From NCBI RefSeq assembly GCF_001550375.1, contig NZ_LRTR01000162.1, forward strand, positions 1-64,000: 64,000 nt of DNA. The letters run 5' to 3'. The DNA is from Streptomyces europaeiscabiei. Lineage in GTDB: Bacteria; Actinomycetota; Actinomycetes; Streptomycetales; Streptomycetaceae. Each line of letters opens with the position of its first letter. Position 1 is the stretch's first letter. Under the pieces are notes generated by a model, which saw nothing but the letters and a program-made list of their open reading frames with translations, did not search any database and was not told the DNA's origin. Made by a program: the position numbers and the translations under genes. Positions 39,096-61,250 of the stretch are shown piece after piece.

Positions 39096-39167
39096 GCCCC
39101 CGTAGCTCAGGGGATAGAGCAACGGCCTCCGGAGCCGTGTGCGCAGGTTCGAATCCTGCCGGGGGCA
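39096..39167 (+). tRNA. tRNA-Arg(CCG)
   Basis: A complete cloverleaf with acceptor GCCCCCG/CGGGGGC, anticodon arm ACGGC-CTCCGGA-GCCGT with anticodon CCG (reads CGG, Arg), and T arm GCAGG-TTCGAAT-CCTGC. The CCA is not encoded. The 3' half from 39123 is the attL core of the integrated element, so the element restores a functional tRNA. Confidence 0.96.
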
Positions 39168-39240
39168 CCTTGCATGAGGTGCCCAAAGACCCCGTCACCA
39201 GCGGAAACGCTGAGGCCGGGGTCTTCGCGTATGTGCAGCC
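39123..39240. repeat. attL: left copy of the AICE att repeat
   Basis: Positions 39123-39172 are identical to 58339-58388 (50 bp, covering the tRNA anticodon stem, T arm and acceptor end). After one mismatch identity continues to 39240/58456. Weaker similarity extends further to about 39278. Confidence 0.93.
39186..39225. terminator. tRNA terminator, duplicated with the att site
   Basis: The outer stem AAGACCCCG/CGGGGTCTT and the inner stem CAGCG-GAAA-CGCTG form a two-part hairpin downstream of the tRNA. The same structure occurs at 58402-58441 in the right repeat. Confidence 0.75.
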
Positions 39241-39400
39241 GTATGCCGCTCGGAGCGGCCGTATGTCGGGTGCTGTGGACTATGTGTGGACTGGCCGCAG
39301 GGCACGAATCCGCAGGTGGGGCCAGGGAAACGACGAGGCCCCCGGACCGTAGTCCAGGGGCCATCATGGCGCAGGTGCACGTGTCGGAGGTGTGTCGGGA

Positions 39401-40807
39401 TCAGGTTCCCTTGCCGGGCCCGTCCTCCTGGTCGTCGTCCTCCCCGAGGAGTTCGGCGATCCGACGGTTGGCGACGTCTTGCCGACCGTCGAGGCACTTC
39501 GCGTAGCGGCTCAAGAGCACCTCGACGCTGTTGCCCGCACGCTCCGCAACCTCGGTGGGGTCCACGCCAGCGTTGAGCCAGGACGACAGAGCGGCGTGCC
39601 GCAGGTCGTACGGGCGGGCAGCCAGCGGCGAGGCCACCTGTTCCGGCGTGAGCGCCAGGTGCCGCGCCTCGTCCCAGACACGCCAGTACGTGGTGGAGGC
39701 GACCACTCCCCCGCGCTCATTGGCGAACAGCCGGCCGTCCTTGGCCGTACCGAACTCCTCGATGTGCGCGAGCAGGATGCGGACGAGGCGGGGCGGAATC
39801 GGAACAATGCGGGTCTCGTTCGCGGGCCGGTTCTTGAGCCCGCGGTTGTCGTGCACCTCCCCCGTGCCAGTCCAACGCTTGCCGACGGTGGGACGGCTCT
39901 TCTCCAGGATCAACGAGCCCCACCCGGTTTCCGGCAGCGTGCAGTCCGGACGACGCAGCGCCACCGCTTCCGCCGGCCGAAGTCCACCGAAGTACATGCA
40001 GGCGAAAAGCGCGACCATGCGGCGCCCACGAGCCCGACGGTAGCCACCGACGTACGAGACAGCGCCAAGGAGTTCAGCAGCCTGCCGCGGGTTCACCACG
40101 ACTCGGCGGTCTACTTCCTTGGCCACCTTCGGCAGCTTCCACTTCACGAGCGTGACCGGGTTCTCCGGGAGCTCCCCCAGCTCGACCGCATAGGCCAGGG
40201 CGTTGAACAGGACGGCCCGCTTGCGCCGCACCGTCTCAGCGGCAGCCGGGGCCCCGGACAACGTGAGCTTGAGCGAGTCGAGAACGCTGCGGATATCTGC
40301 CGCATTCTTGAGCGTGGCCAGCGACAGCGAGGCTTTGGCGACCCAGCGGAGGGCATTGGCGATGTCAACTGGCGGCGCTTCCTCGTCCGGGGCTTGGACG
40401 ACGAAGGCCCAGCCGCGCAGGGCACGCCGCAACACCTCGTCTGCCGGACGACCGGGCCGGTCGCCCAGGAGCTGAGTCGTGACGAGTGTCATCGTCTCGT
40501 TCAGGCTGTCACGCGAGTTCGGGGCAGCATGCGGCCACTTCATGGCGACGTAAGCCCGCGCGAAGTCGTACCAGGAGAGGGACTCTTTGACCGGTGCCAT
40601 GGAGTCCGGCAGCCCGGTGTCCGTGTCGAATGCCTCGCCCTTTTGCGCAGCCCGAAGCAGCTTCGCGCGGAAGTTGTCAGCGAGCGCCTTGGTCCGAAAG
40701 GTCTCGGAGAACGGTGGGACGTCCCCGACCTTCCAACGCACGTCGTATGACGGCGTCTTGTACGGCCGCTTGCGGATGCCCCACACCTTCACGTCATGCG
40801 ACTTCAC
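39401..40807 (-). CDS. int: AICE tyrosine recombinase (integrase)
   Basis: A 468-residue integrase from GTG 40807, which overlaps the xis stop (GTGA); an upstream ATG at 40834 is less likely. It has an N-terminal AP2-like arm-binding region (VWGIRKRPYKTPSYDVRWKV), a core-binding domain and a C-terminal catalytic domain. Catalytic elements are Arg in GGLRPAEAVALRRPD, His-Arg in PYDLRHAALSSWLNAG, and the nucleophile Tyr in VEVLLSRYAKCLDGR. It should recombine attP with the tRNA-Arg 3' end. A related but truncated copy lies at 59411-59536. Confidence 0.93.
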   Translation of the reverse strand: MKSHDVKVWGIRKRPYKTPSYDVRWKVGDVPPFSETFRTKALADNFRAKLLRAAQKGEAFDTDTGLPDSMAPVKESLSWYDFARAYVAMKWPHAAPNSRDSLNETMTLVTTQLLGDRPGRPADEVLRRALRGWAFVVQAPDEEAPPVDIANALRWVAKASLSLATLKNAADIRSVLDSLKLTLSGAPAAAETVRRKRAVLFNALAYAVELGELPENPVTLVKWKLPKVAKEVDRRVVVNPRQAAELLGAVSYVGGYRRARGRRMVALFACMYFGGLRPAEAVALRRPDCTLPETGWGSLILEKSRPTVGKRWTGTGEVHDNRGLKNRPANETRIVPIPPRLVRILLAHIEEFGTAKDGRLFANERGGVVASTTYWRVWDEARHLALTPEQVASPLAARPYDLRHAALSSWLNAGVDPTEVAERAGNSVEVLLSRYAKCLDGRQDVANRRIAELLGEDDDQEDGPGKGT

Positions 40808-40974
40808 GCCGCCTCCCCAAGTCCGTGAAGCCACGCGGTGAAATCACTGCGCCAGAAGCGGAGTTCACCGTTCGGGAGCTTGATCGCTTCCGGAGCCTGT
40901 CCCAGCTCACGCCAGCGGTAAAAGGTGCGGCGAGAGATTCCACCCAGTTCGGTGAGGACCTGCGGGACAGTCAT
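40804..40974 (-). CDS. xis: Excisionase, AlpA/MerR-like HTH
   Basis: A 56-residue winged-HTH protein starting MTVPQVLTELGGISRRTFYRW with the basic wing LPNGELRFWRSDFTAWL. It assists integrase in excision and probably bends att DNA. The ATG at 40974 overlaps the rep stop (ATGA), and its own stop overlaps int (GTGA). An alternative ATG at 40998 would overlap rep by 25 bp. rep, xis and int are thus read as one coupled unit. Confidence 0.92.
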   Translation of the reverse strand: MTVPQVLTELGGISRRTFYRWRELGQAPEAIKLPNGELRFWRSDFTAWLHGLGEAA

Positions 40975-42341
40975 CAGTTCGTCTCGTCGGCGATCCACGC
41001 CGAGTCTCCTTCCGTGTCGGGGGTGGCGTCGGGCGTACGCGATGTCGCGAACCAGGTCTCAGCAGCGGTCAGGCCAGTGCCGGCGAAGCGCCAGTGCGAG
41101 AGGACGAGGACGGTGTCCGGATCGGGCAGCGGATGGCCTGCTTCGGCGGCGCGTTCGCGGGTGAGTGCTTCGTTGTGGTCGGCGCGTTCCTGGCGGAGGG
41201 CGCCGAGGGTGACGGAGTAGGCGCGGGACTTGGTGGAGAAGTGGCCGCGGAAGCCGAGCATGTGGGCCCACTTGCGCAGGCGCAGGTCTTCGAGTTCGGG
41301 GCGGGCGCCGAGGTGCCAACAGGTGAGGATCAGCTGTCGGGCGTGGTCGGTGACGCCGGAGCCGATGAGGTCGGTGATCGGGTTGCGGATGGGGCGGTCG
41401 AGGGTGCCGGCGGTCTCGGCGCCCTTGGTCGCGTACTTCGCGATGTATGAGGCGACGGCGCGGCTGGAGAGTTCCGAGGTGCCCGCGAAGTCGGCCGAGC
41501 GGATGGGACGGACGTCGAGCTGTTTGCCGAAGCGGAAGGTGTAGGGGCGTGCGTCCAGGACAGGGCCGGGGGCTTCGGCAAGGCGCGCCGACGTGCGGAT
41601 TGTGTCGGTGAGGAGTTCGGTCGTTGCCCAGGACGGTGGGGTGTCTTCGGCGCCCTCAGGGCCGTCGAGACGGATGACGGCATGGAAGTGGACAGCGCCG
41701 CGTTGCTGGTACTCGGCGACCTTGGCGTACGAGACCTTGAGGCTGTCGCGGAGTTCCGAGCGAGTGAGGCCCGCGCGGGAGGCGAGTTGCTGGCGCAGGT
41801 AGGTGGTGAAGCGGGCCCACAGGGCGCCGGCGTGTGCGTTCCACAGGACGGCGGCGCGGTAGTCGTACCGGTCGGGGTCGAGCGGGGTACCGAGGGCGGG
41901 GTCGTCCTCCGGGTGGGCCCCGCCGCAGCGGCACCGGCCGCCGTTGGGGCGGTTGTGAACGGGGCCGAAGGAAGGGGCGGTGAAGGTGGCGAAGACGCGG
42001 GGGTGTTGGGCGACGGCAGGGCCGATGCCCTTGCCGCCGCTCAGTCCGGCCGTGACGAGGTGGAACGTGTCCTTGCGGTACACCTCAGCGCAGGCGGCGC
42101 ACCGGGTGGCACGTCGGTTGTTGCAGCGGATGAGGAGCTGTCCGGCCGGAAGGTCGGTGTCGGCGATCTCCCGGACGATCTCTCCAGTTGAGGCATGGAC
42201 GTCGAGTCGGTGGCCCTCCATGCGGACGGGCCGCTCGCAGCCGCCAAGATGCTGGATCTGTCGGGCGTATGCACCCAGGTCGCCGTGTCGGGCGAGGCTG
42301 GCCAGGTGACGGATGGCTCCGAGGGGAGCCGGGGGACGCAT
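40974..42341 (-). CDS. RepSA-like rolling-circle replication initiator
   Basis: A 455-residue initiator of the pSAM2 RepSA family. A Cys cluster (residues 73-84, CNNRRATRCAAC, plus CRCGG at 137-141) probably binds zinc. The HUH metal motif is HFHAV (218-222), and a Tyr-containing helix lies in ASYIAKYATKGAE. It nicks the double-strand origin of the excised circle and starts rolling-circle replication. The start at ATG 42341 has GGAGG upstream, and an operator-like palindrome lies 51 bp before it. Confidence 0.92.
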   Translation of the reverse strand: MRPPAPLGAIRHLASLARHGDLGAYARQIQHLGGCERPVRMEGHRLDVHASTGEIVREIADTDLPAGQLLIRCNNRRATRCAACAEVYRKDTFHLVTAGLSGGKGIGPAVAQHPRVFATFTAPSFGPVHNRPNGGRCRCGGAHPEDDPALGTPLDPDRYDYRAAVLWNAHAGALWARFTTYLRQQLASRAGLTRSELRDSLKVSYAKVAEYQQRGAVHFHAVIRLDGPEGAEDTPPSWATTELLTDTIRTSARLAEAPGPVLDARPYTFRFGKQLDVRPIRSADFAGTSELSSRAVASYIAKYATKGAETAGTLDRPIRNPITDLIGSGVTDHARQLILTCWHLGARPELEDLRLRKWAHMLGFRGHFSTKSRAYSVTLGALRQERADHNEALTRERAAEAGHPLPDPDTVLVLSHWRFAGTGLTAAETWFATSRTPDATPDTEGDSAWIADETN

Positions 42342-44473: not shown

Positions 44474-45865
44474 CTACTCGGTCACCGGGCGAGCGGTGGG
44501 CATGGCAGCGGCCGAGGAGGACGGTCCGCTTGACTCGACGGCGAGGGCGGGCCGGAAGGAGTCGAACCGGGGCAGGTCCGGGACCAGGGCGGCGGTGTCA
44601 CGGCAGACGGCCGCAGCGTCGTCGAGGGTGAGGTGCGGTGCGCGGACGCGGGACCAGCCACCGGAGGAGTCGCCGACGACGGCGATGCCGGGCCGCTCGG
44701 CCGGGATGGAGGTGGCGGCGATCGCCGCCTCCGGGGAGATGTCGGCGAGTGCCATGTTCGCCGAGGCTTCGTCGTTGACGCGGTGGCAGACGCGGCCGGT
44801 CAGCTGGGCGCGCAGCATGGTGGCGCCCTTGCCGAGTTCGGAGCCGAAGCGCTGCCCGCACACCTCCAGATAGATGCCAGCCGCACGCCCGAGCTGGGCG
44901 AGGCGGATGAGCTTGGTGACCATGGCGTCCCGCCGCTTCTCGTCATCGCGGCTCGCGGCGAGGAACAGTTCCGCCACCTCGTCGACGACGACCACGATCG
45001 GTACCGGCCGTACGGATTCCGGCAACCCCCACACGTCCGAAGTGAGCACGGCGTCCGGACCAACCCCGCTCCCGGCACCGCTTCGGAGTCCGATGAGCCG
45101 GAACCGTGCCTCCATCTCGTCCAGCAGCACATCGAGGAGTTCGTCAGCCCGGTCGGAGGTGTCGGCGAGCGCGGACAGCCGGGGCGCGAACGGCGCCAGT
45201 TCGACACCCCATTTGCAGTCGATGCCGACGAGGACGACGGACTGCCGGGCCAGGCCGCACAGCAGGTTGCGCAGGTACACGGATTTGCCGGACTGCGTGG
45301 CGCCGAGGATCAGTTCATGCGGCACGGTGCGGAAGTCCCGTACGTGCCACTCGCCGTCCTCCCGCAGTGCCAGCGGCAGGCAGAGCGGATCGGAGGCCGG
45401 CCGACGCCGGGCGGGCCTGACTTCGGCGAGCACGTCCCAGCCGACCAGCCGCAGTTCGAGCCGCCCCGGCTTTGTGGTGCGGACGTACACGGCATGGACG
45501 CCCCAGGCGTGCCGTAGCCGGTCGGCGGAGGCCATGAAGTCCTCGGGAGCCTGCCCGGCCGCCATACGCAGCCGCATCACGAGACCGGACCCGGTCGGCA
45601 GCGGGAACGACCGCCGAGGCGGTACCGGCGCAGCCTGCCGCCCGACCATCCGGGCAGTGGCCCGACGGACGGCCGAGGCCGGGACCGTCAGGCCGCAAGC
45701 GTCCATCGTGTCCCGGTAGGAGACCAGCACCCGAAGGGCGGCGACCGGATATCCGACGCTCCACCAGAACAGGACCGGCATACGACGGCGCACGGCCAGC
45801 AGCACGCCCAGGACGAGCAGTACCGGCAGCAGAATCGACAACGGAACCCGGAAGTCGTCGGTCAC
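44474..45865 (-). CDS. TraB/TraSA-type FtsK-like DNA translocase
   Basis: A 463-residue conjugation ATPase. One N-terminal TM segment (LLPVLLVLGVLLAV, 12-25) is followed by a linker domain. The motor domain has Walker A GATQSGKS (188-195), Walker B PIVVVVDEVAELF (289-301), and a Q/R-rich segment LEVCGQRFGSELGKGATMLRAQL. The C-terminal part probably recognises clt repeats. AICEs need only this protein to move double-stranded DNA between mycelia. A SCO3933-family gene precedes it by 5 bp in the same operon. Confidence 0.92.
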   Translation of the reverse strand: MTDDFRVPLSILLPVLLVLGVLLAVRRRMPVLFWWSVGYPVAALRVLVSYRDTMDACGLTVPASAVRRATARMVGRQAAPVPPRRSFPLPTGSGLVMRLRMAAGQAPEDFMASADRLRHAWGVHAVYVRTTKPGRLELRLVGWDVLAEVRPARRRPASDPLCLPLALREDGEWHVRDFRTVPHELILGATQSGKSVYLRNLLCGLARQSVVLVGIDCKWGVELAPFAPRLSALADTSDRADELLDVLLDEMEARFRLIGLRSGAGSGVGPDAVLTSDVWGLPESVRPVPIVVVVDEVAELFLAASRDDEKRRDAMVTKLIRLAQLGRAAGIYLEVCGQRFGSELGKGATMLRAQLTGRVCHRVNDEASANMALADISPEAAIAATSIPAERPGIAVVGDSSGGWSRVRAPHLTLDDAAAVCRDTAALVPDLPRFDSFRPALAVESSGPSSSAAAMPTARPVTE

Positions 45866-45870
45866 GGCGA

Positions 45871-48678: not shown

Positions 48679-48694
48679 GTCTAGGGGGCTAGAC
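48679..48694. promoter_or_regulatory. Operator-like palindrome before the RsbW-like gene
   Basis: GTCTAGGGGGCTAGAC has perfect 6-bp inverted arms (GTCTAG/CTAGAC). It ends 21 bp before the ATG at 48658, so it must overlap the promoter or transcript start. Confidence 0.8.
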
Positions 48695-48757
48695 AGCGCA
48701 ACGGCAGAGTATTCCCACGACTAGTCGATGAGCCAGGCATCTTGAGGAATTATTCCT

Positions 48758-50051: not shown

Positions 50052-50097
50052 TCAGTCGGCTGGCGCGCCGTCGTGGCGGGCTTTCGGCGGCTGAGGC
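49986..50097. repeat. Imperfect direct repeat flanking the NACHT module, left copy
   Basis: Shared blocks with 53753-53851 are CTGGTCGACGGC, GTGGCTGAG-(G/C)-CCGGTGGGGG, TGCAGC, GCCGTCGTGGC and GGCTGAGG, in the same order and orientation. The left copy is about 13 bp longer. The repeats lie about 3.7 kb apart around the RHS fragment, NACHT gene, two-TM gene and ars-like remnants. Confidence 0.6.
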
Positions 50098-50330
50098 TGG
50101 GACGGGCCGCGAAGAAGGTGCCGGCCGTAGGAGGTCGGGTTGCCGTGCTCGTCTCGGTTCCAGCGAGTGGTACGCCCGAGCAGGTCGGTGTGGGACACGA
50201 GGTGGTCGTACCGGTCCAATTGCTGGGTCGTGGTGTGCCCGAGTGGATCTGTGATGACGATGATCTGCCCGCGCCGGTTGGCGCGGTAGGACGTGGTCCG
50301 AGCGCGCCTATTCCCGCGACGCGGTGGGAA
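50052..50330 (-). pseudogene. RHS/YD-repeat protein fragment
   Basis: A 92-codon frame closed upstream by a stop at 50331-50333 and without a start codon reads GQIIVITDPLGHTTTQQLDR and then SHTDLLGRTTRWNRDEHGNP. These are two consecutive YD repeats typical of RHS toxins or wall-associated proteins. It is followed by RHLLRGPSQPQPPKARHDG and a stop. Only a short internal-to-terminal piece remains, directly beside the NACHT gene end. It is evidence of earlier cargo replacement. Confidence 0.7.
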
Positions 50331-50340
50331 TCAACGCAGG

Positions 50341-52632
50341 TCACAGGCCGAGGCGTGAAGACCTCTGCAAGAATTGCGTTTTGAGCAGCTCCAGGGAGTC
50401 CTTGACGATGAATTCATTCCCCCATTGAAATTGGGCGGCACATGAAACGTTGTCCAACCTGCGCAGAGCTATGGATATCCCCCCCACAAGCCGAATGGGT
50501 GAGGATATGATGGTTCTCTCACCCAGGTCGACACTCTTCTGCGAGCCCTTCACCGTGAAGTGATCCATAATCCTACCTCGTCGAGTTATGGAGACTTCCA
50601 CCACGGCCCCTCTGCAGTTAAATACGTTGATTATGCCGCCAATCTTCGTGTATACCACTCCGTCCTCATTCGAGGAGGGAGTGAGGTCGGACTTCAGATC
50701 GGCACCTGGAGGAAGATTCCAGGTCAAATTTGGGTTATTGGGCGGACAGGCCTGCGGCTGCGGACAGAAAGAGAATGACTCAAGCTCGGCTTTTGCCCCG
50801 GCCTCGACTTTCAAGTAGTCCGAAGCGTTCGATCCATATGCAACGACGGTTATGTAGAGCAGAGTAAAAGAGAGGACCGCCGCTTGAGCGATGAACGGGG
50901 TAAGATGCAGGGCGATCTTTTTAAACCCTGCATGATTGGTCTTCCTATAGACAGACCGATTCGCCTCCCACTGGTGTCCGGACAGCTTTACATGCAATCG
51001 TTCGTGACGGAACTGATAGGCAACTCCGCTGCGACGTAACACGCCGAGATCGTGAGAATACCGAATGAATCGAGTGAACCTCAAAGGGAGCTGGCCTCGG
51101 AGTAGAAACCATAGGTGGGAGATGCGATATGAAGCCCATGCTGACCCGACCAGCGTGGCGACACCTACAATGCCGCCAGAAATGGCCGCAATGAGAGTCG
51201 CGCGTCGCCCATCAACATCGAAAGCAAGCCATAGCCATCCACCGACCAGCCCCATCATAACGAAAAAGCTGACACTTGCTGTCAGCAACGCAAGACCAAC
51301 GGACCGCACCTTGAGGGTTTCCGGACGACGGGCGAAGCCCTCCGCGACATAGATGTTCCGCAAGGGATCATGGAAAATTAGATGTGCCAATACCGAGGAA
51401 AGCGACCCCATAAATGCTCCGAAAAATATTCCGATCTGTCCGAGCATCATGTAGCCCAGCCAGCCGCAACTGACACCATAGGCTAGGCCGACGAAGATAC
51501 TGGTGACCCATGAATCAATCTGCCACCATGCAAATTCATGAGTCCTATCCGATTGCATCTGCCGCGCAATCACCTCAAGATAGCGCCGTGCCCGAGCGGA
51601 ACGATATCGACTGCGTGACTCCCTGTAAACCGTATCCAGGTAGCTCTCGAGAAGGTGGTCCTCAATGTCCTCGGACTTTCCGAACCTCGGCAGTTCGAGG
51701 AGTTCGTCCGGGTTCGTTGACCGAGATTGATAAGCGATGCGCGCCAGGTAGAGCATGAGAGGCGAAGAGAGGACCTGCGCCAAAGGCGAATACGGGTTTT
51801 CCTGCAGTGACTGGAATACGGTGTCCCATCGATTGTCAGATTCCTCAAGCGTTTGCTGAAGGAATCGTTCAGCTGACTCGGTCGATACGGGATCAAGCTC
51901 TACGACTGCCGCTCTGCTGAGGCGTTGGCCCTCACGAGCCAGAGCTTCGTACTCATCTGAACGGCACGTCATCAGGAGCCCTTTATCCGACACGATCGCG
52001 TCTTCGATCGCGTTAACTACTTGCCCCCTGACAGCTTCCGGGACTTCGTCGAGTCCGTCCAGGACGGGCATGACCTGTCCCTCGTCAAAAAGTTTCCGCT
52101 CGACGCCTTCACCGAGAATCCGGTTCTTATGCAGACTATATCTGAAGTTCTTGAGATTACGGACGACCCAATCTGACAGGCTATCGCTCGAGCGCCACGA
52201 GGAAAGTGACAGAAGAATGGGCACTGGTTCGCCCGGTTCCCATGAGTTCAGTAATTCCCAGGTAAGGAGAAGCGCGAGCGTACTTTTCCCGGCCCCTGGC
52301 CTGCCGATGACCACCACCTGCCGCCTTAGCAGACTGCGAAAGTAGTCGGGTACGTCCCGCACGTCACCGTGTTGTAGAGCACCGCCGGAGCCCAAGACCT
52401 GCGGTTTGGTGTGAACGGGACGCCCTGAGCGCGACCACCGCACCCGGATCGGCTCCGGATGGTCCAGCCGAAGCCGTCCGATCTCCCGCGCAAGGCTTGC
52501 TTTATGCGCATTTCGGAGCCTGGCTGCGGCGTCTTCTATGGGGCTGACAGGTCCGCCGTTGAGGACTTGGATCTGTAGGAGGTCACCATCTACGTGCGTC
52601 CTGGTGATATTTTGTCGGACTTTGCGCCACAT
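50341..52632 (-). CDS. Membrane-anchored NACHT NTPase (candidate bacterial NLR)
   Basis: A 763-residue STAND NTPase. Residues 6-21 carry the short motif NITRTHVDGDLLQIQ. The NACHT domain spans about 95-330: Walker A GRPGAGKST (110-118), Walker B VLDGLDEVP (190-198), sensor region LLMTCRSDEYEA (219-230). Four hydrophobic segments follow (about 378-420, 445-471, 478-500, 577-600), interrupted by a conserved AYQFRHERL box (538-546). The last 160 residues are beta-rich and probably extracytoplasmic, with Cys pairs (FCPQPQACPPNN). GC is visibly lower than in the neighbours. NACHT proteins act in anti-phage defence; divergent from a two-TM gene with the same motif. Confidence 0.88.
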   Translation of the reverse strand: MWRKVRQNITRTHVDGDLLQIQVLNGGPVSPIEDAAARLRNAHKASLAREIGRLRLDHPEPIRVRWSRSGRPVHTKPQVLGSGGALQHGDVRDVPDYFRSLLRRQVVVIGRPGAGKSTLALLLTWELLNSWEPGEPVPILLSLSSWRSSDSLSDWVVRNLKNFRYSLHKNRILGEGVERKLFDEGQVMPVLDGLDEVPEAVRGQVVNAIEDAIVSDKGLLMTCRSDEYEALAREGQRLSRAAVVELDPVSTESAERFLQQTLEESDNRWDTVFQSLQENPYSPLAQVLSSPLMLYLARIAYQSRSTNPDELLELPRFGKSEDIEDHLLESYLDTVYRESRSRYRSARARRYLEVIARQMQSDRTHEFAWWQIDSWVTSIFVGLAYGVSCGWLGYMMLGQIGIFFGAFMGSLSSVLAHLIFHDPLRNIYVAEGFARRPETLKVRSVGLALLTASVSFFVMMGLVGGWLWLAFDVDGRRATLIAAISGGIVGVATLVGSAWASYRISHLWFLLRGQLPLRFTRFIRYSHDLGVLRRSGVAYQFRHERLHVKLSGHQWEANRSVYRKTNHAGFKKIALHLTPFIAQAAVLSFTLLYITVVAYGSNASDYLKVEAGAKAELESFSFCPQPQACPPNNPNLTWNLPPGADLKSDLTPSSNEDGVVYTKIGGIINVFNCRGAVVEVSITRRGRIMDHFTVKGSQKSVDLGERTIISSPIRLVGGISIALRRLDNVSCAAQFQWGNEFIVKDSLELLKTQFLQRSSRLGL

Positions 52633-52691
52633 GGCCGGCCCCCGTAGTGCAGACTGAGTCGCAATGGTAAGTGCGCGCTGGGGGTGCGGGG

Positions 52692-53000
52692 ATGGGAATG
52701 ACAGGCAAACGTGTCCTGGCTGCCGGAGCCACGGTCGTCGTCTCGGCGGCGATCAACGTGGCCGTAGGCAAGTGGACGCAGGACTGGTCATGGGCTTGGC
52801 TGGCCAGCGTGGTCGTTCTGATCGTTCTGGGGGCTGCGTTGCAGATGTGGCTCACACAGAACGAAGAGTCGCGGCAGCGGCGTCAGGTGTTCAAAGACGT
52901 TGAAGGCCGGTCACTGAAGCAGAAGATGAAGGGTGCCGGTGACCAGACGGTAGAACGGGCCAAGATCAAGGGAGACCTCACTCAGACTCAAGATGAGTAA
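52692..53000 (+). CDS. Small two-TM protein sharing the NACHT N-terminal motif
   Basis: A 102-residue protein from ATG 52692 (a GTG at 52671 and an ATG at 52698 are alternatives). Two TM helices (about 8-26 and 34-54) precede a charged helix (NEESRQRRQVFKDVEGRSLK). The C-terminal motif QTVERAKIKGDLTQTQ lies at 85-100. Aligned with the NACHT N-terminus, the Ile/Val positions, Arg, Gly-Asp-Leu and both Gln residues coincide. This is the layout of an NLR effector: membrane domain plus C-terminal signalling motif. It is divergent from the NACHT gene with only 59 bp between starts, so they probably share control. Confidence 0.75.
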   Translation: MGMTGKRVLAAGATVVVSAAINVAVGKWTQDWSWAWLASVVVLIVLGAALQMWLTQNEESRQRRQVFKDVEGRSLKQKMKGAGDQTVERAKIKGDLTQTQDE

Positions 53001-53446
53001 GGACTTCGAGACCTCCAGGTGTCCAAGCGATCGCCCGGATCGGCATCTGCTTGGCCCGGTGCAGCCTGCGTGGCCGCCATGGACAGCCCCGCCAGTAGCC
53101 AAGCGGCGGTGAACACAGCCAGGTTGGGTGCGTACGCAATGGCCAGCACGGCCGCGACGCCGAGCACTGAGCTGGTGGTCATCACGGCGCAGGGGCCGCG
53201 TTTGTCGAGGATGCGGCCGACGGGCATGCCTGCGAGGGCGGAGATCAGCAGCGCACCAGAGAAGGCAGCGGTCGTGGCGGTCGTGGACCAGCCGGTGACG
53301 GCGGTGATCTGCGGGTTGAGGACGGGGAAGGCGTTGTAGACGATTCCCCAGCCGGTGATCTGGGTGGCGCACAGGGCGGGCAACGCGGGGCGAGGCCGTG
53401 ACCGGTCCCTCGCCCCGGTCACCTCGCTGGTGTCGAGGTCGGTCAT
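52988..53446 (-). pseudogene. Truncated MFS transporter
   Basis: From ATG 53446 about 130 residues match the N-terminal third of an MFS permease (ALCATQITGWGIVYNAFPVL, then helix 2-4 with SALAGMPVGRILDKRG). The frame then runs into an unrelated charged tail (ADADPGDRLDTWRS) and stops just inside the 3' end of the two-TM gene. About two thirds of the transporter is missing, so it is non-functional. Together with the ArsI/CadI-like fragment it looks like the debris of a metalloid-resistance operon. Confidence 0.75.
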
Positions 53447-53453
53447 CGGCGGA

Positions 53454-53600
53454 TTAGCAGCAGTTGCCCGCAGCGACCGGTTCCTTCGTGCCGGTGTCGG
53501 ACTCGGCCGTCCCTGTGCAGCAGGTGCTGCCTTGCTGCTTGGCCCAAGGAGTCGGCGTCCGCCTTGACGACGTACACCTCCAGGGGTTCCCTGGCCGCCC
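53454..53600 (-). pseudogene. ArsI/CadI-like C-terminal fragment with frameshift
   Basis: One frame reads EPLEVYVVKADADSLG. A second frame continues AKQQGSTCCTGTAESDTG and ends PVAAGNCC with a stop. Joined by a one-base shift near 53540 they match the end of ArsI/CadI-type glyoxalase-fold proteins (GExWEVYxVxADxxxFG plus a Cys-rich tail). The rest of the gene is missing. It lies 7 bp upstream of the truncated MFS gene. Confidence 0.55.
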
Positions 53601-53752
53601 GGTGGCGGGCGTGGCTGGCCGCGGAGCTGGAAAACGAACCGGCCACGCACGGCCTCCGCTGCAGGTCAGACCTAGAACAAGCCGCACCACTCTTAGCTTC
53701 CCAAGCTGAGGGCTCAGGCGTCGTGGGCACGGACCGGCCATCGTGCCTTGCA

Positions 53753-53851
53753 CTGGTCGACGGCAGTGACAGCGTGGCTGAGCCCGGTGGGGGTGCAGCA
53801 GCGTGGTCGGTTGGCGCACCCGCCGTCGTGGCTGACTGTCGTTGGCTGAGG
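53753..53851. repeat. Imperfect direct repeat flanking the NACHT module, right copy
   Basis: Partner of 49986-50097; see there for shared blocks. It ends 1 bp before the stop of the small gene at 53853. Confidence 0.6.
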
Positions 53852-53852
53852 T

Positions 53853-54194
53853 TCACACGGGGGTCCTCCGCACGCCGGCGCACGCGATCAGCCTGCTGCC
53901 GTCCTCGGTGAGGAACAGCATGAATGTCCAGGAGCCATCCGCAGCCCTGATCTGCCCCAGACGAACCGGAAGCTGATGCCGGCCGAGCAGTTCAACAGTG
54001 CGGGCCAGGTTCGTGGTCTCGATGCCCCGGCGGCGTGTATGCCGCAGCCGACGTGCATAGACATGGGCGAGCGGCTCAGCAGACGTAGGCTCGTCCCAGA
54101 CGATGTGAGAACCGCCGCCGCGGAGTGCGGCCAGAGCGACCACGGACGCCTCGTCGTCGCTAACCAGCAGCCGCTCGAGTAGTTCCCGCTCCAT
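53853..54194 (-). CDS. Small protein of unknown function
   Basis: A 113-residue protein from ATG 54194 (MERELLERLLVSDDEASVVA) preceded by GGGGGTGA. A central GIETTNLARTVELLGRHQLPV helix and a C-terminal strand region (SWTFMLFLTEDGSRLIACAG) are visible. I recognise no family. It lies between ars-like debris and the insertion sequence and has normal codon bias, so it is probably a real cargo gene. Confidence 0.5.
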   Translation of the reverse strand: MERELLERLLVSDDEASVVALAALRGGGSHIVWDEPTSAEPLAHVYARRLRHTRRRGIETTNLARTVELLGRHQLPVRLGQIRAADGSWTFMLFLTEDGSRLIACAGVRRTPV

Positions 54195-54544
54195 GCCGTC
54201 ACCCCCACCCGGATCCTGCTGTACAGCAACCGGATACAGCGCCCACAGCAACCGGCCCCACCCCGAAGCGTCTCCCTGGGGCCGACGTGCGACCTGTATG
54301 TCCGTCAGCGACCGATCTCTGTAGAGCTACGGATCAGAAGGCTTCTGACATCCACGGCCGACATCAACGACGCCGGACGGTGGCGTACACCAGCGTCTCT
54401 GTCCGGCCGTCGGACCAGTCGACGGCCACAGCTAGAGCGGAATTGGATCGAACTCCTAAAGCGGTGCTCAGCCAGCCGAGGACTATCTGAGCTCCTGGAC
54501 CGTGTCGTGGACTGCCCGCCATCTACACGTACGCGCTACAGCAT

Positions 54545-55446
54545 GAGCCTTTTCCAACCTGGCTCGGTGGGTGGGTAGGTGCGCTGGTGGGGCGGTGTCC
54601 GGACGTGAAGAAGCTCCTGGTAGACGGGTTCACGACCAAGATCGCCTGTCCAACAGGAGCTTCCGCGTGCTTGTCTACCCGTCCGGCGTCGATGTGTCCA
54701 CCTCGTCCTTGCGCTACCTGTCCGCTCGCCTGCGGGCCCGCCGTCAGGAACGTGGAACTCGCTGGCGCCGCGTGAGCGCGGGCCGCCAGGCCCTGCTCGT
54801 CCTGGCGCACCTGCGCTGCGGTCATACCTACGCCCAGCTCGCCGCCGGGTTCGGCGTCGGCACCACCACCGCCTACCGGTACATCGCCGAGGCCATCGAT
54901 GTCCTGGCCGCCCTCGCCCCGACTCTCGCCGAAGCGATCAAAACCGCCTCCGCCAAGGCATACGTCATGCTGGACGGCACGCTGCTGCCGATCGACCGGA
55001 TCGCCGCCGACCGCCCCTACTACTCCGGAAAACACAAGAAACACGGCATGAACGTGCAGGTCATCACCGATCCCGCGGGGCGGCTGCTGTGGGCCTCACC
55101 CGCGCTGCCCGGCGCGGTCCACGACATCAAGGCCGCGCGGACCCACGGCATCATCGACGCCCTGACCGAAGCCGGCGTCGCCTGCTTCGCTGACAAGGGC
55201 TACCGGGGTGCCGGCGGCACGATACGGCTGCCCTACTGGGGCCGATGGGAGACGCTGTCCGCAGGAAAGCAAACCGTCAACCGCTCGCACGCCAGGATCC
55301 GCGCACTCGTCGAGCCGGCCATGGCCACCCTCAAGACCTGGCGCCTCCTGCGCAAGCTCCGTTGCAGCACCACCCGCATCACCAAGCTCGTTCAGGCCGT
55401 CCTCACCCTGCACCTCACCTGCTCAAACTGAGGTTGGAGACAGTTC
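54545..55446 (+). mobile_element. IS5-type insertion sequence, about 0.9 kb
   Basis: Imperfect terminal inverted repeats match at 12 of 16 positions: GAGCCTTTTCCAACCT at 54545-54560 and the complement of AGGTTGGAGACAGTTC at 55431-55446. They enclose one transposase gene. No obvious target duplication was seen, so the ends may be off by a few bases. A second copy of the right end lies at 56753-56803. Confidence 0.75.
54667..55431 (+). CDS. IS5-family DDE transposase
   Basis: A 254-residue transposase read from GTG 54667 (VLVYPSGVDVSTSSLRYL). An N-terminal HTH (HTH_Tnp_4 type: RCGHTYAQLAAGFGVGTTTAYRYI) precedes the DDE_Tnp_4 core. Catalytic acids are in VMLDGTLLPID, FADKGYRGAGG and RALVEPAMATLK. 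It is uninterrupted, and the stop lies at the first base of the right terminal repeat. The element may be active. Confidence 0.88.
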   Translation: MLVYPSGVDVSTSSLRYLSARLRARRQERGTRWRRVSAGRQALLVLAHLRCGHTYAQLAAGFGVGTTTAYRYIAEAIDVLAALAPTLAEAIKTASAKAYVMLDGTLLPIDRIAADRPYYSGKHKKHGMNVQVITDPAGRLLWASPALPGAVHDIKAARTHGIIDALTEAGVACFADKGYRGAGGTIRLPYWGRWETLSAGKQTVNRSHARIRALVEPAMATLKTWRLLRKLRCSTTRITKLVQAVLTLHLTCSN

Positions 55447-55872
55447 ACTTCCTCGCCATCGCCGCAACCCTTATATGCCACCGCAGGCTCACCAACTGAA
55501 ATGACGCCCAAGTAGGAAAAACCGGTGGACTTCGTCGGGATACTTGGCAGTAGAGGCGGTCGCTGGCCGTCCTTCATCCGGACGCGGCGTTTCGGCAATC
55601 AGTTTGGATGGCTGTGCCTAAAGCGCTCCGCAGTGAACGCGCGCTTGCCGACCACTGTCCCCATCGTGGCCGATGGGGCGCTGGTGGAGTGGGGACCTGC
55701 GTCGGTGCGGCGTGCCGCGGTTTCCCACGAAATCCGGTGGAGTCTCAACGGCCGGAAGTGGTTGAGTCCTGCTCAATGCTTCGCTGACACGGCCCGGCAC
55801 AGTGCGAGGCGCAAGGTCCGAATCGCAGGCGTGGTCTAGCCCGCGTGGCGTCGAGTGATGGAGGTTATCGCG
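55447..55872. other. Intergenic region between IS and methyltransferase gene
   Basis: A frame of about 100 codons at 55525-55839 on the plus strand shows no family features and is not called. Nothing else was recognised. Confidence 0.4.
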
Positions 55873-56661
55873 GTGGCTGGTTATGGGGCGCTTTCCGACG
55901 TATACGAGTGGCTGATCGGGGACGACAGGTTGACCCCCGCCAAGGCAGCCGCGGTTTACTACAGCGATGTCGTGGGCTCTCTGCCGCCCAACGCGCGCGT
56001 CCTCGACTGCGCGTGTGGAACCGGCCAGCTCGCCGTCGGTCTCGCGAGTCTTGGCCTTGACGTGGTCGCCGCAGACGCCAGCAATGGGATGGTTCGCCGG
56101 ACCGAGAAGGCCGCCGACGAGCAGGGTGTCTCGCTTCGAGCCCTCCGCGCGAGCTGGGATGAGCTGCCCGACCACCTGGAGGACTCCACGTTCGATCTGG
56201 TGTTCTGCGTCGGCAACTCGCTCGGGCACGCCGAGGGCGCAGCCGGGCGCCTGACCGCACTGGAAGCGATGTCGCGGCTGCTGAATCCGGGCGGACGCCT
56301 TGTGCTCCACTCACGCAACTGGGAGCTCGTGCGCTCCGCCGGCTCACGGGTAGACGTCCGCGATCGACTCATCCGCCGCAACGACCGCGATGCGGTCGTC
56401 AGCTACTACTGGCAGATCGAGCAGCGCTGGGAGCAGGAACACTTCCTCGAGATCGTGGTCGCCCAGATCGAGCCGGATGGGGCAGTGCGAGCCTGCTCGG
56501 AGCGGTTGTCCATCTGGCCCTACCGGTACGAGGACCTCGTGGCGCAGTTGCGGAGCGTCGGGCTCACGGTGCAGTCCACCACCTTCGACCCCGAGAGCGA
56601 TGGATACCTGGTGGTCGCCAGCCGCGACCAGGCGCGAGGCACGTCTGAGCCGGCGCGCTGA
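55873..56661 (+). CDS. Class I SAM-dependent methyltransferase
   Basis: A 262-residue enzyme from GTG 55873, chosen because GGAGG lies 8 nt upstream (an ATG at 55858 is possible). Motif I is VLDCACGTGQLAVGLA, acidic motif II is VVAADASNGMV, motif IV is FDLVFCVGNSLGHAEG, and LLNPGGRLVLHSRNWE follows. The N-terminal YGALSDVYEWLIGDD resembles glycine-sarcosine-type methyltransferases. The substrate is unknown. It sits between an IS and a remnant IS end, so it may have been moved by transposition. Confidence 0.85.
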   Translation: MAGYGALSDVYEWLIGDDRLTPAKAAAVYYSDVVGSLPPNARVLDCACGTGQLAVGLASLGLDVVAADASNGMVRRTEKAADEQGVSLRALRASWDELPDHLEDSTFDLVFCVGNSLGHAEGAAGRLTALEAMSRLLNPGGRLVLHSRNWELVRSAGSRVDVRDRLIRRNDRDAVVSYYWQIEQRWEQEHFLEIVVAQIEPDGAVRACSERLSIWPYRYEDLVAQLRSVGLTVQSTTFDPESDGYLVVASRDQARGTSEPAR

Positions 56662-56752
56662 TCCGCCTTTCGTCGTCGTTGCCAACCTGCCAGCTCGCGA
56701 CCGCCTGCAGCGCTTCGCGAAGTGTTCAGCGCTTGAAGCGGTTGCTGCGGGT

Positions 56753-56803
56753 GCGGTCCTCACCCTGCATCTGACCTGCTCAAGCTGAGGTTGGAAACAG
56801 CTC
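56753..56803 (+). repeat. Remnant of an IS5-type right end
   Basis: GCGGTCCTCACCCTGCA through AGGTTGGAAACAGCTC matches the last codons and right terminal repeat of the IS at 54545-55446. The terminal 16 bp match the IS left repeat at 14 of 16 positions. Confidence 0.75.
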
Positions 56804-56828
56804 CATGACTGCCACCAGCCCTGAGAGG

Positions 56829-57257
56829 TCATGTCAGTTGCTCAGCGATGTCATCGCCTAGTACGGGGAGGCCGTTCTGCAGTGAACCCTTGAATTGACT
56901 GTCCAGAACGGCCGCCATGAGGGTGAGTATGCCGGCAGCCTGGTGCGGTTGATTCTTGAGCGGAGTCTCGAAGGTTGCCAGTCGGATGATCACACCGATG
57001 GCCGACTTCTTCTGATACAGCAAAATTTCGGCTGTCTCGACGGAGGGCAGTGGGCAGGCCTTCCGATCATGGCCGTCGTGGTCGCCGGGGCACAGGTACT
57101 CGATGTCTTGCGACTGCAGCCACACTTGCAGCTCGCGACATCGCGACTCACTCAGACGTTCCCACGTCGAATCGAACTCGCTCTTGATCCACTTCATGGT
57201 CACGGCCGTGATGCCGTGGTCTTTCTTGAGCTTCTCGTCGATGGCATGGCGAGGCAT
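56829..57257 (-). CDS. Cargo protein of unknown function
   Basis: A 142-residue protein from ATG 57257 (MPRHAIDEKLKKDHGITAVT) with GGAG at 5 nt. It contains WIKSEFDSTWERLSESRCRE, a CPGDHDGHDRKACPLPS segment with two Cys and several His, and a C-terminal helical part. No family is recognised. Codon use is somewhat less GC-biased than in core genes, consistent with accessory origin. Confidence 0.55.
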   Translation of the reverse strand: MPRHAIDEKLKKDHGITAVTMKWIKSEFDSTWERLSESRCRELQVWLQSQDIEYLCPGDHDGHDRKACPLPSVETAEILLYQKKSAIGVIIRLATFETPLKNQPHQAAGILTLMAAVLDSQFKGSLQNGLPVLGDDIAEQLT

Positions 57258-57502
57258 GGCGACTCCGATGTAGAAAATACGGAAAGAGACCAGCTTGCCC
57301 GAAGCTAGTCCACCATGGGGCGACAATGACGGACTCTCGTAGCTGGGGCTGGGAGCCACAGAACTTGGTGCACGGGACGTCACTAGACGAGGCAGAGCCG
57401 GGTGATGGGTGCCGCTACGCGCGCCGCCAGTCGCCACACCCGCCTGCGTGAAGGACGGCACGGCATGTAATGTGCCCTCACCTGCAGGCTTTTGGGGGGA
57501 TC

Positions 57503-58030
57503 ATGCATATTCGCACCACCGCAGCCGGACTCGCGTTCGCCGGAGTGCTGTTGGTCGGCTGTAGCTCCACCGACACCTCGTCGAGCACATCTCCGAAGAG
57601 CACGAGCTCCGTGGACCCAGCCGCGGCCGAGAAGCCAGACGCAGTGACCGCACAGCAGGCCGTGGCAGCGCTGGGGAAGTCCATCCCGGAGTTGAAGCTC
57701 GTCCAGGTCTATACCGAGGCCAACGACCCGAACCACCTGCTCGGGCGGCCGGGTGGCTACACCAGCAAGGCCGCATTCTCCGACGGCCGTGTCTCCTCTG
57801 CGGACGTCGAGGGTCTGGACAAGGACGCAATTGAGCGCGGCGGCAGCGTCGAAGTCTTCAAGAACGAGGACGAGGCGAAGGCTCGGGCGAAGTACATCGA
57901 GACGATCGCCAAGTCCATGCCTAGCGCGACCGAGTACCACTATGTCGTCGGCGGCATCCTCATCCGTGTGTCGAACCTGCTGACACCCACTCAGGCAAAG
58001 GACTATGAGGCGGGGGCCAAGAGCCTCTGA
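57503..58030 (+). CDS. Secreted lipoprotein of unknown function
   Basis: A 175-residue protein from ATG 57503 with a lipoprotein signal (MHIRTTAAGLAFAGVLLVGC; lipobox LVGC). A Ser/Thr-rich linker follows, then a folded domain of about 120 residues containing KYIETIAKSMPSATEYHYVVGG. The pattern resembles many small Streptomyces surface lipoproteins. It is the last gene before attR. It could serve in surface exclusion, but nothing in the sequence proves that. Confidence 0.75.
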   Translation: MHIRTTAAGLAFAGVLLVGCSSTDTSSSTSPKSTSSVDPAAAEKPDAVTAQQAVAALGKSIPELKLVQVYTEANDPNHLLGRPGGYTSKAAFSDGRVSSADVEGLDKDAIERGGSVEVFKNEDEAKARAKYIETIAKSMPSATEYHYVVGGILIRVSNLLTPTQAKDYEAGAKSL

Positions 58031-58338
58031 CGTGCGCGGCATGAAGCACTCACCCTTGGGGCTGTCCGACTACCCCGCGCCGATCGCAATGGGCCGCTCT
58101 CTCGCAGATGCAGTTCAGGCATGGAGTGCTCGTAGAGCCTCCCGGGCTGGGCCCGGTAACAACGAGTCGCCGCGGGCGCAACCGTCCCCGTCATCTCGGC
58201 CAGAGAAGTCGCAGCGCACGGGCAAGACGTCCCGGCCTCGCTCCTAAAGCCTCAGCCGACTGTGGCCTATCCGTGGACTCACCTTGCCCGATCTGCCACG
58301 TGCAAAGCGATGACCTGCTACGTTGCCCGGGTGTCAAG

Positions 58339-58456
58339 CGGCCTCCGGAGCCGTGTGCGCAGGTTCGAATCCTGCCGGGGGCACCTTGTATGAGGTGCCC
58401 AAAGACCCCGTCACCAGCGGAAACGCTGAGGCCGGGGTCTTCGCGTATGTGCAGCC
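58339..58456. repeat. attR: right copy of the AICE att repeat
   Basis: It matches 39123-39240 with one mismatch (C at 39173, T at 58389). It contains the tRNA-Arg 3' half and the terminator hairpin but not the tRNA 5' half. Weaker similarity continues to about 58494. Confidence 0.93.
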
Positions 58457-58599
58457 AGATGCCGCCCGAAGCGACCGTATGTCGGGGTCCGTGGACGGGA
58501 TCTTGGCACATCGCTGCAGGTCACTGTCGGATTCCAGAGACGACCTGCGAACGCGACCTTCCCGGCATCGCGCCGCGCTCGACTGCTTAGATCATCGGC

Positions 58600-59349
58600 A
58601 TGACGGACTGGTCTCGGCTCCACCACGCCTACGGCACGGCAGAAGACGTTCCCGAGCTGCTTGACGCAGTGGGTCCGGACGCGCAGGACCCCGGCTGGGA
58701 CGAACTCTGGTCCCGGCTGTGCCATCAGGGCACCGTCTACTCGGCGAGCTACGCGGCCTTGCCCGCTCTCACGGAAATGGCTCGTCAGTGGTCAGCGGTG
58801 GACCGGAGGGCGCCCCTCTACCTGGCCGGCTCCATTGTGGCCGGCACAGATCAGCGGTACGGCGATGAGGATCCCCAAGTGACCTACGCCTCCCAGATAT
58901 CCGACCTGGCGCAACTCACCGAGGAAGCCCTCCAGGACCCGGGACTGGCCGACGCCCCCATGAGCTACGTCGACTTGCTGAGCACACTGCTGAGTTTCCA
59001 GGGCGTCGAAGTCTGGGGCGAGCAGCTCGACGGGCTGAACGACGAAGAGTACGAGGTGCCCTGCCCCTCGTGCAGTGCGGAGAACTTCATAGCCTTCGGC
59101 AAGTACGGCTTCTTCTCGACCACCGACAGCATGTACATGGAGCCTTCCCCCACCGCGAGGCAGGTGCCGCTGCTACCTCAGGCGCCCACAGCTTTGGAGG
59201 GGCTGGCCCAAAGGCTCTACTCCCGCGCACTCGCCGACGGTCAGCCGGACATCGCAAGCAAATTGACCTACGTCTTCGGTAACGCGCAGTGCGCCGAGTG
59301 CGATGCCGTCTTCAGCGTCGAGGAAACCATCGTCGCCCGTTGCGGCTGA
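58600..59349 (+). CDS. Protein of unknown function with zinc-ribbon-like Cys pairs
   Basis: A 249-residue protein (MTDWSRLHHAYGTAEDVPEL). The N-terminal half is helical, with the HQGTVYSASYAALPALTEMA segment seen in HEAT-like immunity or scaffold proteins. The C-terminal half contains CPSCSAEN and CAECDAVF, two CxxC knuckles. From memory, similar proteins occur in Streptomyces near polymorphic-toxin loci, but no toxin gene is adjacent. It lies between attR and the integrase remnant, so it is likely cargo of the older element. Confidence 0.65.
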   Translation: MTDWSRLHHAYGTAEDVPELLDAVGPDAQDPGWDELWSRLCHQGTVYSASYAALPALTEMARQWSAVDRRAPLYLAGSIVAGTDQRYGDEDPQVTYASQISDLAQLTEEALQDPGLADAPMSYVDLLSTLLSFQGVEVWGEQLDGLNDEEYEVPCPSCSAENFIAFGKYGFFSTTDSMYMEPSPTARQVPLLPQAPTALEGLAQRLYSRALADGQPDIASKLTYVFGNAQCAECDAVFSVEETIVARCG

Positions 59350-59410
59350 TGACACTGTGGTCGCCAAGCGCCACAGGTCGAACCGATTGAGAGAGCCCGG
59401 GAAGATCGCG

Positions 59411-59536
59411 TCACTCGTATTCGCGAAGCAGGTCCTCGATACGCCGGTTGGCGACGTCCTGCCGCCCGTCGAGGCACTGCGCGTAGCGGGTCAGTAGGAC
59501 CTCAACGCTGTTGCCGGCGCGCTCGGCGACCTGTAT
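59411..59536 (-). pseudogene. int: C-terminal remnant of a second AICE integrase
   Basis: The frame reads VAERAGNSVEVLLTRYAQCL, then DGRQDVANRRIEDLLREYE and a stop. The intact integrase has the same stretch, nearly identical, around its catalytic Tyr. Upstream sequence shows no further integrase similarity. The remnant faces the att copy at 58339 in the same orientation as the intact int faces attL. Confidence 0.88.
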
Positions 59537-59554
59537 CCGCCTGCCTACGGCTCC

Positions 59555-60139
59555 TCAATCTCTGGTTGGCAGCGGCTCGTGACGGTGCCAGATCAAGTAC
59601 CGGTCCTCGCGGCGCAACTCCGCGGAACCCCACTCAATGCGCATGACGCCCTTCGCCATGGAGCAGGCATAGGCGACGAGGACGAGCTGCACGTCTTCGG
59701 GAAGCAGCTCCAGGTCTGGATGTACCTCGGAGTCATCGAGTTCTCCCCAGTCCAGGTCGAATGCCTGCTGCCTGGGAGGAGGGCCGTGGCGTCGGATCAG
59801 TTCGGCTCGAAAGCCCGTGGCCCGACGGAGACGTGCAGCCGTGACGGGCACGTCCTTCTTCGCATAGCGGAGGGGGTAGATCAGGTGGCCGCGGACGAGC
59901 ATCATCGTGCGTCCTTGCAGGCGCACAGCTTCCCCGAGCCCGGAGATGCCGGAGGCTAGTTCCTCGTATTGCACCGCGTAGAGGCCATGTCCGTAGGCTT
60001 CGAGCGTCTGAGTGTGGACGCCCTCGTGTCCGGTGCGGGCCCGATCATGAGCCCTGAGAAGGCAAGCCGGGATGACGTCCGCCAGTTCACCGGCTATGTC
60101 CCCGAAGGTCTCACGTGCCCATTGACTGGCTGAACCCAC
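59555..60139 (-). CDS. Protein of unknown function
   Basis: A 194-residue protein from GTG 60139 (VGSASQWARETFGDIAGELA), preceded by GGGAGGG at 9 nt. An ATG at 60178 would add 13 residues. It contains HEGVHTQTLEAYGHGLYAVQ, RGHLIYPLRYAKKDVPVTAA and PEDVQLVLVAYACSMAKGVM. I remember similar hypothetical proteins from Streptomyces accessory regions but no function. It lies next to the integrase remnant. Confidence 0.65.
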   Translation of the reverse strand: MGSASQWARETFGDIAGELADVIPACLLRAHDRARTGHEGVHTQTLEAYGHGLYAVQYEELASGISGLGEAVRLQGRTMMLVRGHLIYPLRYAKKDVPVTAARLRRATGFRAELIRRHGPPPRQQAFDLDWGELDDSEVHPDLELLPEDVQLVLVAYACSMAKGVMRIEWGSAELRREDRYLIWHRHEPLPTRD

Positions 60140-60955
60140 GACGTACCGCCCTCCCCTGGTGGTCTTGCAGCGCAGCACCGAGCAGCATCCATCTGAACCG
60201 TGCTGCGCCCAGGCGAGTCACACAAGGTGGCAACCAGCGCACAAAGGGAGCGCACACCACCTGAACAGGGTTCACCGCACGTGCCGCTAGCGTGCTGCAA
60301 GCAGCGGACGGTCCCATGGCCCTATCGCTCGCAGTGACGGCAGTCCTGACGGCAGTCCTGACGGCAACGACTGCGGACGGTCACGGCGGCTTCGCGGCGC
60401 CACACGGATGCGATCTCAAATGTCCGATCCCGCAAGATCTCCTTGCGTGGGCTGTTTGTGGGGCGGAGAGTCGCAAGGGAGCACCATCCGGCATACGGAG
60501 AAGCGGGGCATTTGGCTTTGGTGGCCAGTGCCTGGCATGCCGTGGGCAGCCCGTCGCCGTGTCAGATGCGAACGTCGGTACCACGACGCAACGGCTCACG
60601 GCATGCTGGGCACTTGAGCAGGTAGGCCGCAGCAAGGATCTGCGCGCTTCCGGAGTCGGGCCACGAGTTGGTCGGGCCGGGCTCCGGCGCTGTGGCCCGA
60701 TTCCGGCACATCGACTGGCCCGAGCTAGGGCTACGGCCTCGCCGACGAGTTCGACCTGCTCTTGATGTACGCGCGGGTCATCCGTGAGGCCCAGTCCGCC
60801 GCTGACACGCTGACCCGCTGACCCGCTGCCCTGCGGGCACACCTGAACGCCGGTCTGTTGCGTCGGCGCTGGACGGACCTGTTTCTGCCCGCTCCGGCCC
60901 GTGCGGCCCGGCGGACCCGCTTTTCCGAGCTGGCACCTGCGGCGGCCGCGGCGTA
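60140..60955. other. Decayed region with short gene fragments
   Basis: No intact gene. On the plus strand at 60729-60822 a short frame reads YGLADEFDLLLMYARVIREA before a stop. At 60829-60955 another reads LRAHLNAGLLRRRWTDLFLP before a stop. Both look like fragments of genes upstream of AbiEii-type nucleotidyltransferases. A short GACGGCAGTCCT repeat (60337-60366) is also present. Confidence 0.4.
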
Positions 60956-61250
60956 GTGGACGAGCTGCACCGCCGACTGATCCGCATCGGGCTCGACGCG
61001 CTCGCCGGGCGACTTCGGCTACGCCCTCGCAGGCGGCTACGCGTTCAAGCCCACCTGATCGTCAACCGGGTCAGTAACGAAGTCGACCTCCTCGCCCCGA
61101 TCAACCGGGCCACCTCGAAGATGCCCGCAGGACCTGTGGACGGGGAGACGCTCAATGCCTGGATGCGCTGGTCGGCCATCGCGGCCCGTCCGTACAGGCG
61201 ACGCACGGCGCCCCCGGCGGCGCTTCACCGCGTTCAGCTCGAACACGCCT
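60956..61250 (+). pseudogene. AbiEii-like nucleotidyltransferase remnant
   Basis: The frame starts VDELHRRLIRIGLDALAG and later reads AHLIVNRVSNEVDLLAPI, matching the N-terminus and DxD strand of AbiEii/AbiGii toxin nucleotidyltransferases. Between them, about 13 residues are in a wrong frame. The shifted frame of the same DNA reads DFGYALAGGYAFK, which is the expected G-G-Y-A active-site strand. Two compensating indels have destroyed that motif, and the downstream part is unrelated. The gene is inactive. Confidence 0.65.

Follow-up and report, generated by a model that had tools for sequence, protein, structure and literature searches.

The chromosome of Streptomyces europaeiscabiei carries an intact AICE to the right of a tRNA-Arg(CCG) gene (39096..39169, plus strand; ARAGORN), and beyond the element lies a second copy of its attachment site, beginning at 58339. 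The question raised by this arrangement is whether the second copy marks only the right end of the AICE against the chromosome or, as the initial annotation proposed, the junction between the intact element and a decayed predecessor. The window analyzed here, a stretch of 64,000 nucleotides, is part of contig C71 in an assembly of 10.5 Mb and 931 contigs (genomes and contigs are denoted below by our own G and C numbers). In the relatives compared, the tRNA gene is preceded on its left by a conserved block of genes, which we take to be thrB/thrC/hom/lysA/argS. The conserved right flank, recognized by three marker genes from G108, sits on a different contig, C73, and C71 stops at 69567, short of it.

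The resident element (39123-58385) encodes an intact tyrosine integrase of 477 residues (39401..40834, minus strand; Pfam Phage_integrase, E 4.5e-5, just under the cut-off), a RepSA-type replication initiator (40974..42341, minus; Pfam RepSA, E 1.6e-149, with the NCBIfam RepSA model under its cut-off) and an FtsK/SpoIIIE-family transfer protein (44474..45865, minus; Pfam FtsK_SpoIIIE, E 5.7e-32). With an integrase, a replication initiator and an FtsK/TraB-type transfer gene lying between att copies at the 3' end of a tRNA gene, it is an AICE, an assignment in which the integrase and TraB models match below their curated cut-offs and the RepSA and FtsK Pfam models above them. XerC-like matches to the integrase are weak, and its relatives adjoin att copies in other genomes. 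The remaining genes include a DUF5753 regulator, a transposase, a methyltransferase and a NACHT gene. The NACHT-domain protein (50341-52632; Pfam E 1.6e-7) also resembles the antiphage protein EruA, but only weakly and with a score far below the cut-off. A GGGGGCTAGACAG-like motif recurs in the element at 42380-42409, 46269-46341 and 48667-48696, once as an inverted repeat; as a guess, these repeats could be putative operator sites.

The left att region (39123..39280) and the second copy (58339..58496), both on the plus strand, were delimited by a repeat search and mismatch counts, supplemented for the second copy by alignments with relatives. They constitute a 158-bp repeat, made up of the last 47 bp of the tRNA gene and a 111-bp extension, with 94% identity. 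Its 9 mismatches are unevenly distributed: one falls in the first 117 bp, which comprise the tRNA 3' end and the sequence that follows it, and eight in the last 41 bp. The size of this repeat was considered as proof of a second left end and rejected as such, because part of the extension follows the tRNA gene in most surveyed genomes. A lone AICE is likewise bordered by an att copy on its right, and the repeat by itself is hence compatible with a history devoid of any older element, in which the second att copy is a plain chromosomal right end and the integrase piece behind it a duplicated fragment of the resident gene. We hold this history to be extremely improbable on account of the piece itself and of the gene in front of it, p249 (58600..59349, plus strand), which precedes int in other elements.

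The integrase piece noticed in the initial annotation is real and lies, like the intact int, on the minus strand (59411..59533; protein and nucleotide comparison). It is a C-terminal stump of 38 codons (428-465) rather than 39, its frame closed by a stop codon; it lacks the N-terminal 425 or so residues and starts 915 bp, not 955 bp, to the right of the 158-bp repeat. The corresponding distance for the intact int is 121 bp, and p249 takes up most of the difference. An amino acid identity of 84% makes the stump a homolog of the intact integrase, for which "nearly identical" was too strong a description, and the DNA match between the two (E = 7.7e-24 when searched against the 10.5-Mb genome) is not due to chance. 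Among the loci collected for comparison, the stump shares over 122 bp 93.4% nucleotide identity with the integrase genes of G141, G260 and G106, 92.6% with that of G216 and 91.8% with those of G111 and G140, versus 85.4% over 96 bp with the intact int of S. europaeiscabiei. A further integrase segment, in G024 (C74), matches it at 97%, and the p249 copy of that genome (84%) sits on contig C61. At the protein level the stump is 92% identical to residues 426-464 of the G260 integrase, which as a whole is only 67% identical to the resident one. These comparisons place the stump in an integrase clade other than the resident's, and duplication of the resident int as its source is rejected on the contrast of 93% versus 85% nucleotide identity. 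Without most of the integrase protein, the stump cannot act.

Relatives combining a matching integrase C-terminus with p249, for which the initial annotation had recommended a search, were found at the same tRNA-Arg(CCG) gene. G260 displays the order tRNA-att-p249-NERD nuclease-int-repSA-tra and carries an att copy at 28.4 kb. The left portion of this arrangement recurs in G216, where the nuclease-like gene is at 35% and repSA is split in two, on a contig that ends early. In both genomes int is 93% identical to the stump in nucleotides, whereas p249 is only 70-71% identical in amino acids. G142 has tRNA-att-p249-stump without an intact AICE, the arrangement that would be expected before a later insertion. 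It aligns with 58339-59532 as a single block at 75% identity, and the chromosomal genes nearby are about 87% identical between G142 and S. europaeiscabiei; S. antnestii also yields a single alignable block. The stump boundary falls at residue 410 in G142 versus 426 in S. europaeiscabiei, and it is possible that the two remnants share descent.

The order of genes in G260 and G216, together with the state of G142, supports the proposed junction. The sequence to the right of 58339 most likely represents the degraded left end of a different element that had occupied the same tRNA gene before, and we assign a probability of about 0.87 to the reading that 58339 is the boundary of two elements using one attachment site, an older AICE of another integrase lineage having entered first and the resident later. 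The figure is not higher because p249 and int do not share their entire history, so that the remnant is possibly a mosaic. The newest insertion at such a site sits next to the tRNA gene, and the order of insertion is deduced from this rule and from the state of G142. Under this scheme, the 3' half of tRNA-Arg(CCG) would have served both elements, and the first arrival would have been an AICE with p249 between its left att and int. Its right part would subsequently have been lost by deletion; what is still recognizable in the sequence is the left att, followed by p249 and the C-terminal 38 codons of int. The resident AICE would then have recombined at the tRNA end and displaced the remnant 19 kb rightward, so that one att copy would now serve both as the right end of the resident and as the left end of the remnant. 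With its 38-codon int stump only, the remnant is not itself an AICE in the sense of an element with its own int, rep and tra, and the stretch between 58339 and the end of C71 (69567) yields no match to a second repSA or tra. Given the shared tRNA end, the stump of another clade to the right of the second copy and the matching relatives, the locus is, as judged from sequence, one of accretion.

The 249-residue open reading frame was correctly described at the outset, and its interpretation as leftover cargo of the older element is upheld by the att-p249-nuclease-int order of G260 and G216. Matches to p249 at E 1e-20 or better occur in 89 of 392 genomes, and 15 copies, that of S. europaeiscabiei included, are at least 62% identical. 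Within 2 kb upstream of these close copies, att-derived sequence is found in 13 of 15: a tRNA-end copy in 11, and only pieces of the stretch following it in G380 and G234; none is found in G070 and G053. In G142, G216, G260, G283 and G326, the distance from the beginning of the tRNA gene to that of p249 is 300-340 bp. All 15 copies are free of stops, and the median dN/dS is 0.23 (104 of 105 pairs, dS < 1.5; the highest value, 0.43, is for S. europaeiscabiei versus G040), which fits selection, perhaps partly acting in other genomes.

The closest copies of p249, in G370 (89%), G040 (85%) and G024 (84%), each have att upstream and no integrase piece detected beside them, and in G370 (C12:234860-235877) and G040 (C1:946145-947168) these att-p249 units lie far from the genome's own tRNA-Arg(CCG). 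G326 and G283 have p249 at the tRNA gene without a detected integrase. It could be argued from these cases that att-p249 is a separate small unit or a recombination product and that the stump came from a different past element, the two never having belonged together. We consider this quite unlikely, since an integrase piece follows p249 directly, within 175 bp and without the nuclease, in five genomes (S. europaeiscabiei, G142, G380, G234 and S. antnestii), the nuclease and int follow it in two more, and G142 and S. antnestii each align as a single block. Nevertheless, p249 and the stump have different closest relatives, which speaks against a simple history and implies partly separate histories for p249 and int; the older remnant may accordingly be a mosaic.

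The second gene behind the att copy, p207 (59555..60178, minus strand), encodes 207 residues from a GTG at 60178, the length of 194 originally given corresponding to a later start at 60139. The proposal that it too is cargo of the older element is unsupported. Homology with G235 (90% over the block 59555-60353), G226 (91%, to 60288) and G052 (85%, to 60342) begins exactly at 59555, where the p207 stop codon lies 22 bp beyond the stump. Relatives of p207, present in 55 of 392 genomes, occupy varied places. Those of G268, G273, G146 and G235 are in an AICE or tRNA-Arg setting and that of G294 is at a tRNA-Arg(TCT), the view for most other genomes being a flank of 1.5 kb.

Neither p249 nor p207 belongs to a Pfam or NCBIfam family or has a match in PADLOC, and no convincing relatives of either were recovered from the PDB by sequence. 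For p249 there is one sub-threshold zinc-ribbon match, and up to 7 of 28 of its homologs give weak DUF7560 or zinc-ribbon matches; none of 17 p207 homologs has a Pfam match. The structures predicted for them (mean pLDDT 87.8 for p249, 84.5 for p207) retrieved nothing at E 0.001 or better from the PDB with Foldseek, nor did the p249 model from viral structures. A second structure search with p249 yielded helical-repeat chains at a commonplace level, the top hit being a designed-binder complex (Z 9.2, 3.5 A over 100 residues).

A further consideration is whether 58339 is an internal att of a composite unit with its true right end farther right, the resident AICE and a CIME-like passenger moving together. 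Such units have been described for ICEs and, in the portion of PMC4891641 concerned with it, for pSAM2, which adjoins the cis-mobilizable element XSAM1; ladders with two or more further att copies occur in 3 of the 29 genomes surveyed below, and S. scabiei too has p249 behind the right att of the same AICE. Joint mobilization by the resident integrase would, however, need a further att copy on the right. The third copy that the initial annotation suggested looking for was not found in the assembly, including C71 up to 69567: the 31-mer of the tRNA end, allowing up to 3 mismatches, hits the two known sites only, and on C71 to the right of 58500 the best att-like site has 13 mismatches, versus 12-13 in five shuffles. 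The remnant thus has a left att copy, and no right copy in an assembly in which C71 ends before the conserved flank; a further copy could still lie in the gap between C71 and C73. In S. scabiei 87.22 (NC_013929.1, about 3336277-3347002) the same AICE is 96% identical over 10.7 kb and is followed by an att copy and by p249 at 84% nucleotide identity, which argues against a single recent arrival there. Two core stretches are 95% and 88% identical between the species, and by these figures the divergence is unequal, the AICE differing from the p249 flank. The S. scabiei tRNA-Arg gene lies 31 kb further left than the AICE, and no tRNA-end copy was found at the left edge of the latter. All told, joint movement of this kind appears unlikely. 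As a separate observation, contig C635 has four partial matches to the att query (15086, 27411, 34522 and 38517), one of them inside a tRNA-Arg(CCT) gene; together they possibly form another att ladder.

Element pile-ups of this kind are already published for Streptomyces, and the locus is a further example. The section of PMC9513070 on such loci describes AICEs that have accreted at one tRNA-Arg within a population of Streptomyces, together with a conserved remnant of an older element, and direct repeats at a second site that enclose cargo genes and truncated integrases. Successive AICEs with different integrases, a tRNA-Arg and a trace of an older element are common to both cases, though the tRNA-Arg need not be the same gene, whereas here, relative to what that section covers, relatives in which the same cargo gene is followed by a complete integrase allow a comparison of the older left end. 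The tandem elements Sav3708 and Sav3728 of S. avermitilis likewise combine integrases of different sub-families at one tRNA-Arg gene, but both are listed as AICEs in the part of PMC3218068 that treats them, while in S. europaeiscabiei one of the two is a stump. XSAM1, called cis-mobilizable in the portion of PMC4891641 mentioned above, resembles the remnant in adjoining an AICE; it is 42 kb long, whereas only a left att, cargo and stump are recognized here, with no right att found. In the relevant part of PMC8369830 the term CIME is used for the toxin-gene region of scab-causing species. The interest of the present locus is that a decayed element can be set beside relatives retaining a complete integrase after the same cargo gene, that the probable order in which the elements entered is legible, and that one cargo gene is still open while the machinery around it has been lost.

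The same tRNA site was surveyed, over 40 kb to its right, in 29 genomes out of 150, taken in listing order among those with at most 10 contigs and outside the set already compared (G096 was skipped); genomes chosen for matching were kept out of the counts. At least one further att copy of 36 nt or more is present in 10 of the 29. Partial or broken integrases occur in 12 (those scored as broken in G079 and G128 are possibly sequencing frameshifts) and full ones in five, and 14 genomes have neither an integrase nor a further att copy. The conserved-flank marker was unreached in 10 of the 29, including three of these 14 (G080, G051 and G025). The initial hypothesis would have been undermined had the flanking genes been core in element-free strains; neither p249 nor p207 (at 50% identity or above across half its length) was found in any of the 14 within 40 kb, the nearest approach being a 79-residue stretch of G098 that is 40% like p249. 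In G103 the tRNA site is near-empty, with other genes, presumably Ku-like and LigD-like, preceding the conserved flank. The possibility that p249 and p207 are core genes is rejected on these grounds. Judging from the survey, stacking of elements and decay of their integrases seem to be common at tRNA-Arg(CCG), so that what outlasts decay is accessible to comparative study. A wider generalization, which we put forward tentatively and with some doubt, is that cargo between attL and int outlives the elements, so that AICEs would leave ladders of att, cargo and stump, with p249-like cargo under selection and carriage in cis possible. If this were true, tRNA-Arg(CCG) would be a place where small cargo (p249, AbiEii, NERD nuclease) accumulates throughout Streptomyces. 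Separately, in G125 (C25) two full-length integrases of different clades lie in tandem between three tRNA-end copies at the same tRNA gene.

Besides the separate lineage of the stump, the analysis goes beyond the initial annotation in recognizing further remnants. The segment 60390..61199 (plus strand) appears to be a module, now decayed, from the left end of yet another type of element, and includes the remnant of an AbiEii-type gene. It matches G007 and G009 in pieces, at 81-82% over 60574-61130, and its counterpart there is a module between an att copy and int; the AbiEii assignment (Pfam, E 4.8e-6) comes from the G007 form of the module and not from the remnant in the window. A possible integrase scrap at 61153-61199 is weak, at 15 residues (E 6.5e-4, three short stretches searched; 47 bp at 85%). 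Three kb beyond the window, C71:66977-67439 holds an integrase remnant covering residues about 243-281 and 350-476, with a stop and a frameshift and 83-86% nucleotide identity to the resident integrase's own clade. Taken together, these sequences point to at least two, perhaps three, earlier integrase-bearing elements that left traces at the locus. From 61287 to the end of the window at 64000 (minus strand) lie response regulator and ABC transporter genes, with a kinase gene beyond it, representing older flank or further island DNA. This response regulator-ABC-kinase block (61287-65650) is also present in G098, 4 kb from the tRNA gene of that genome, and it may be near 61287 that an older layer, or the chromosome itself, begins again.
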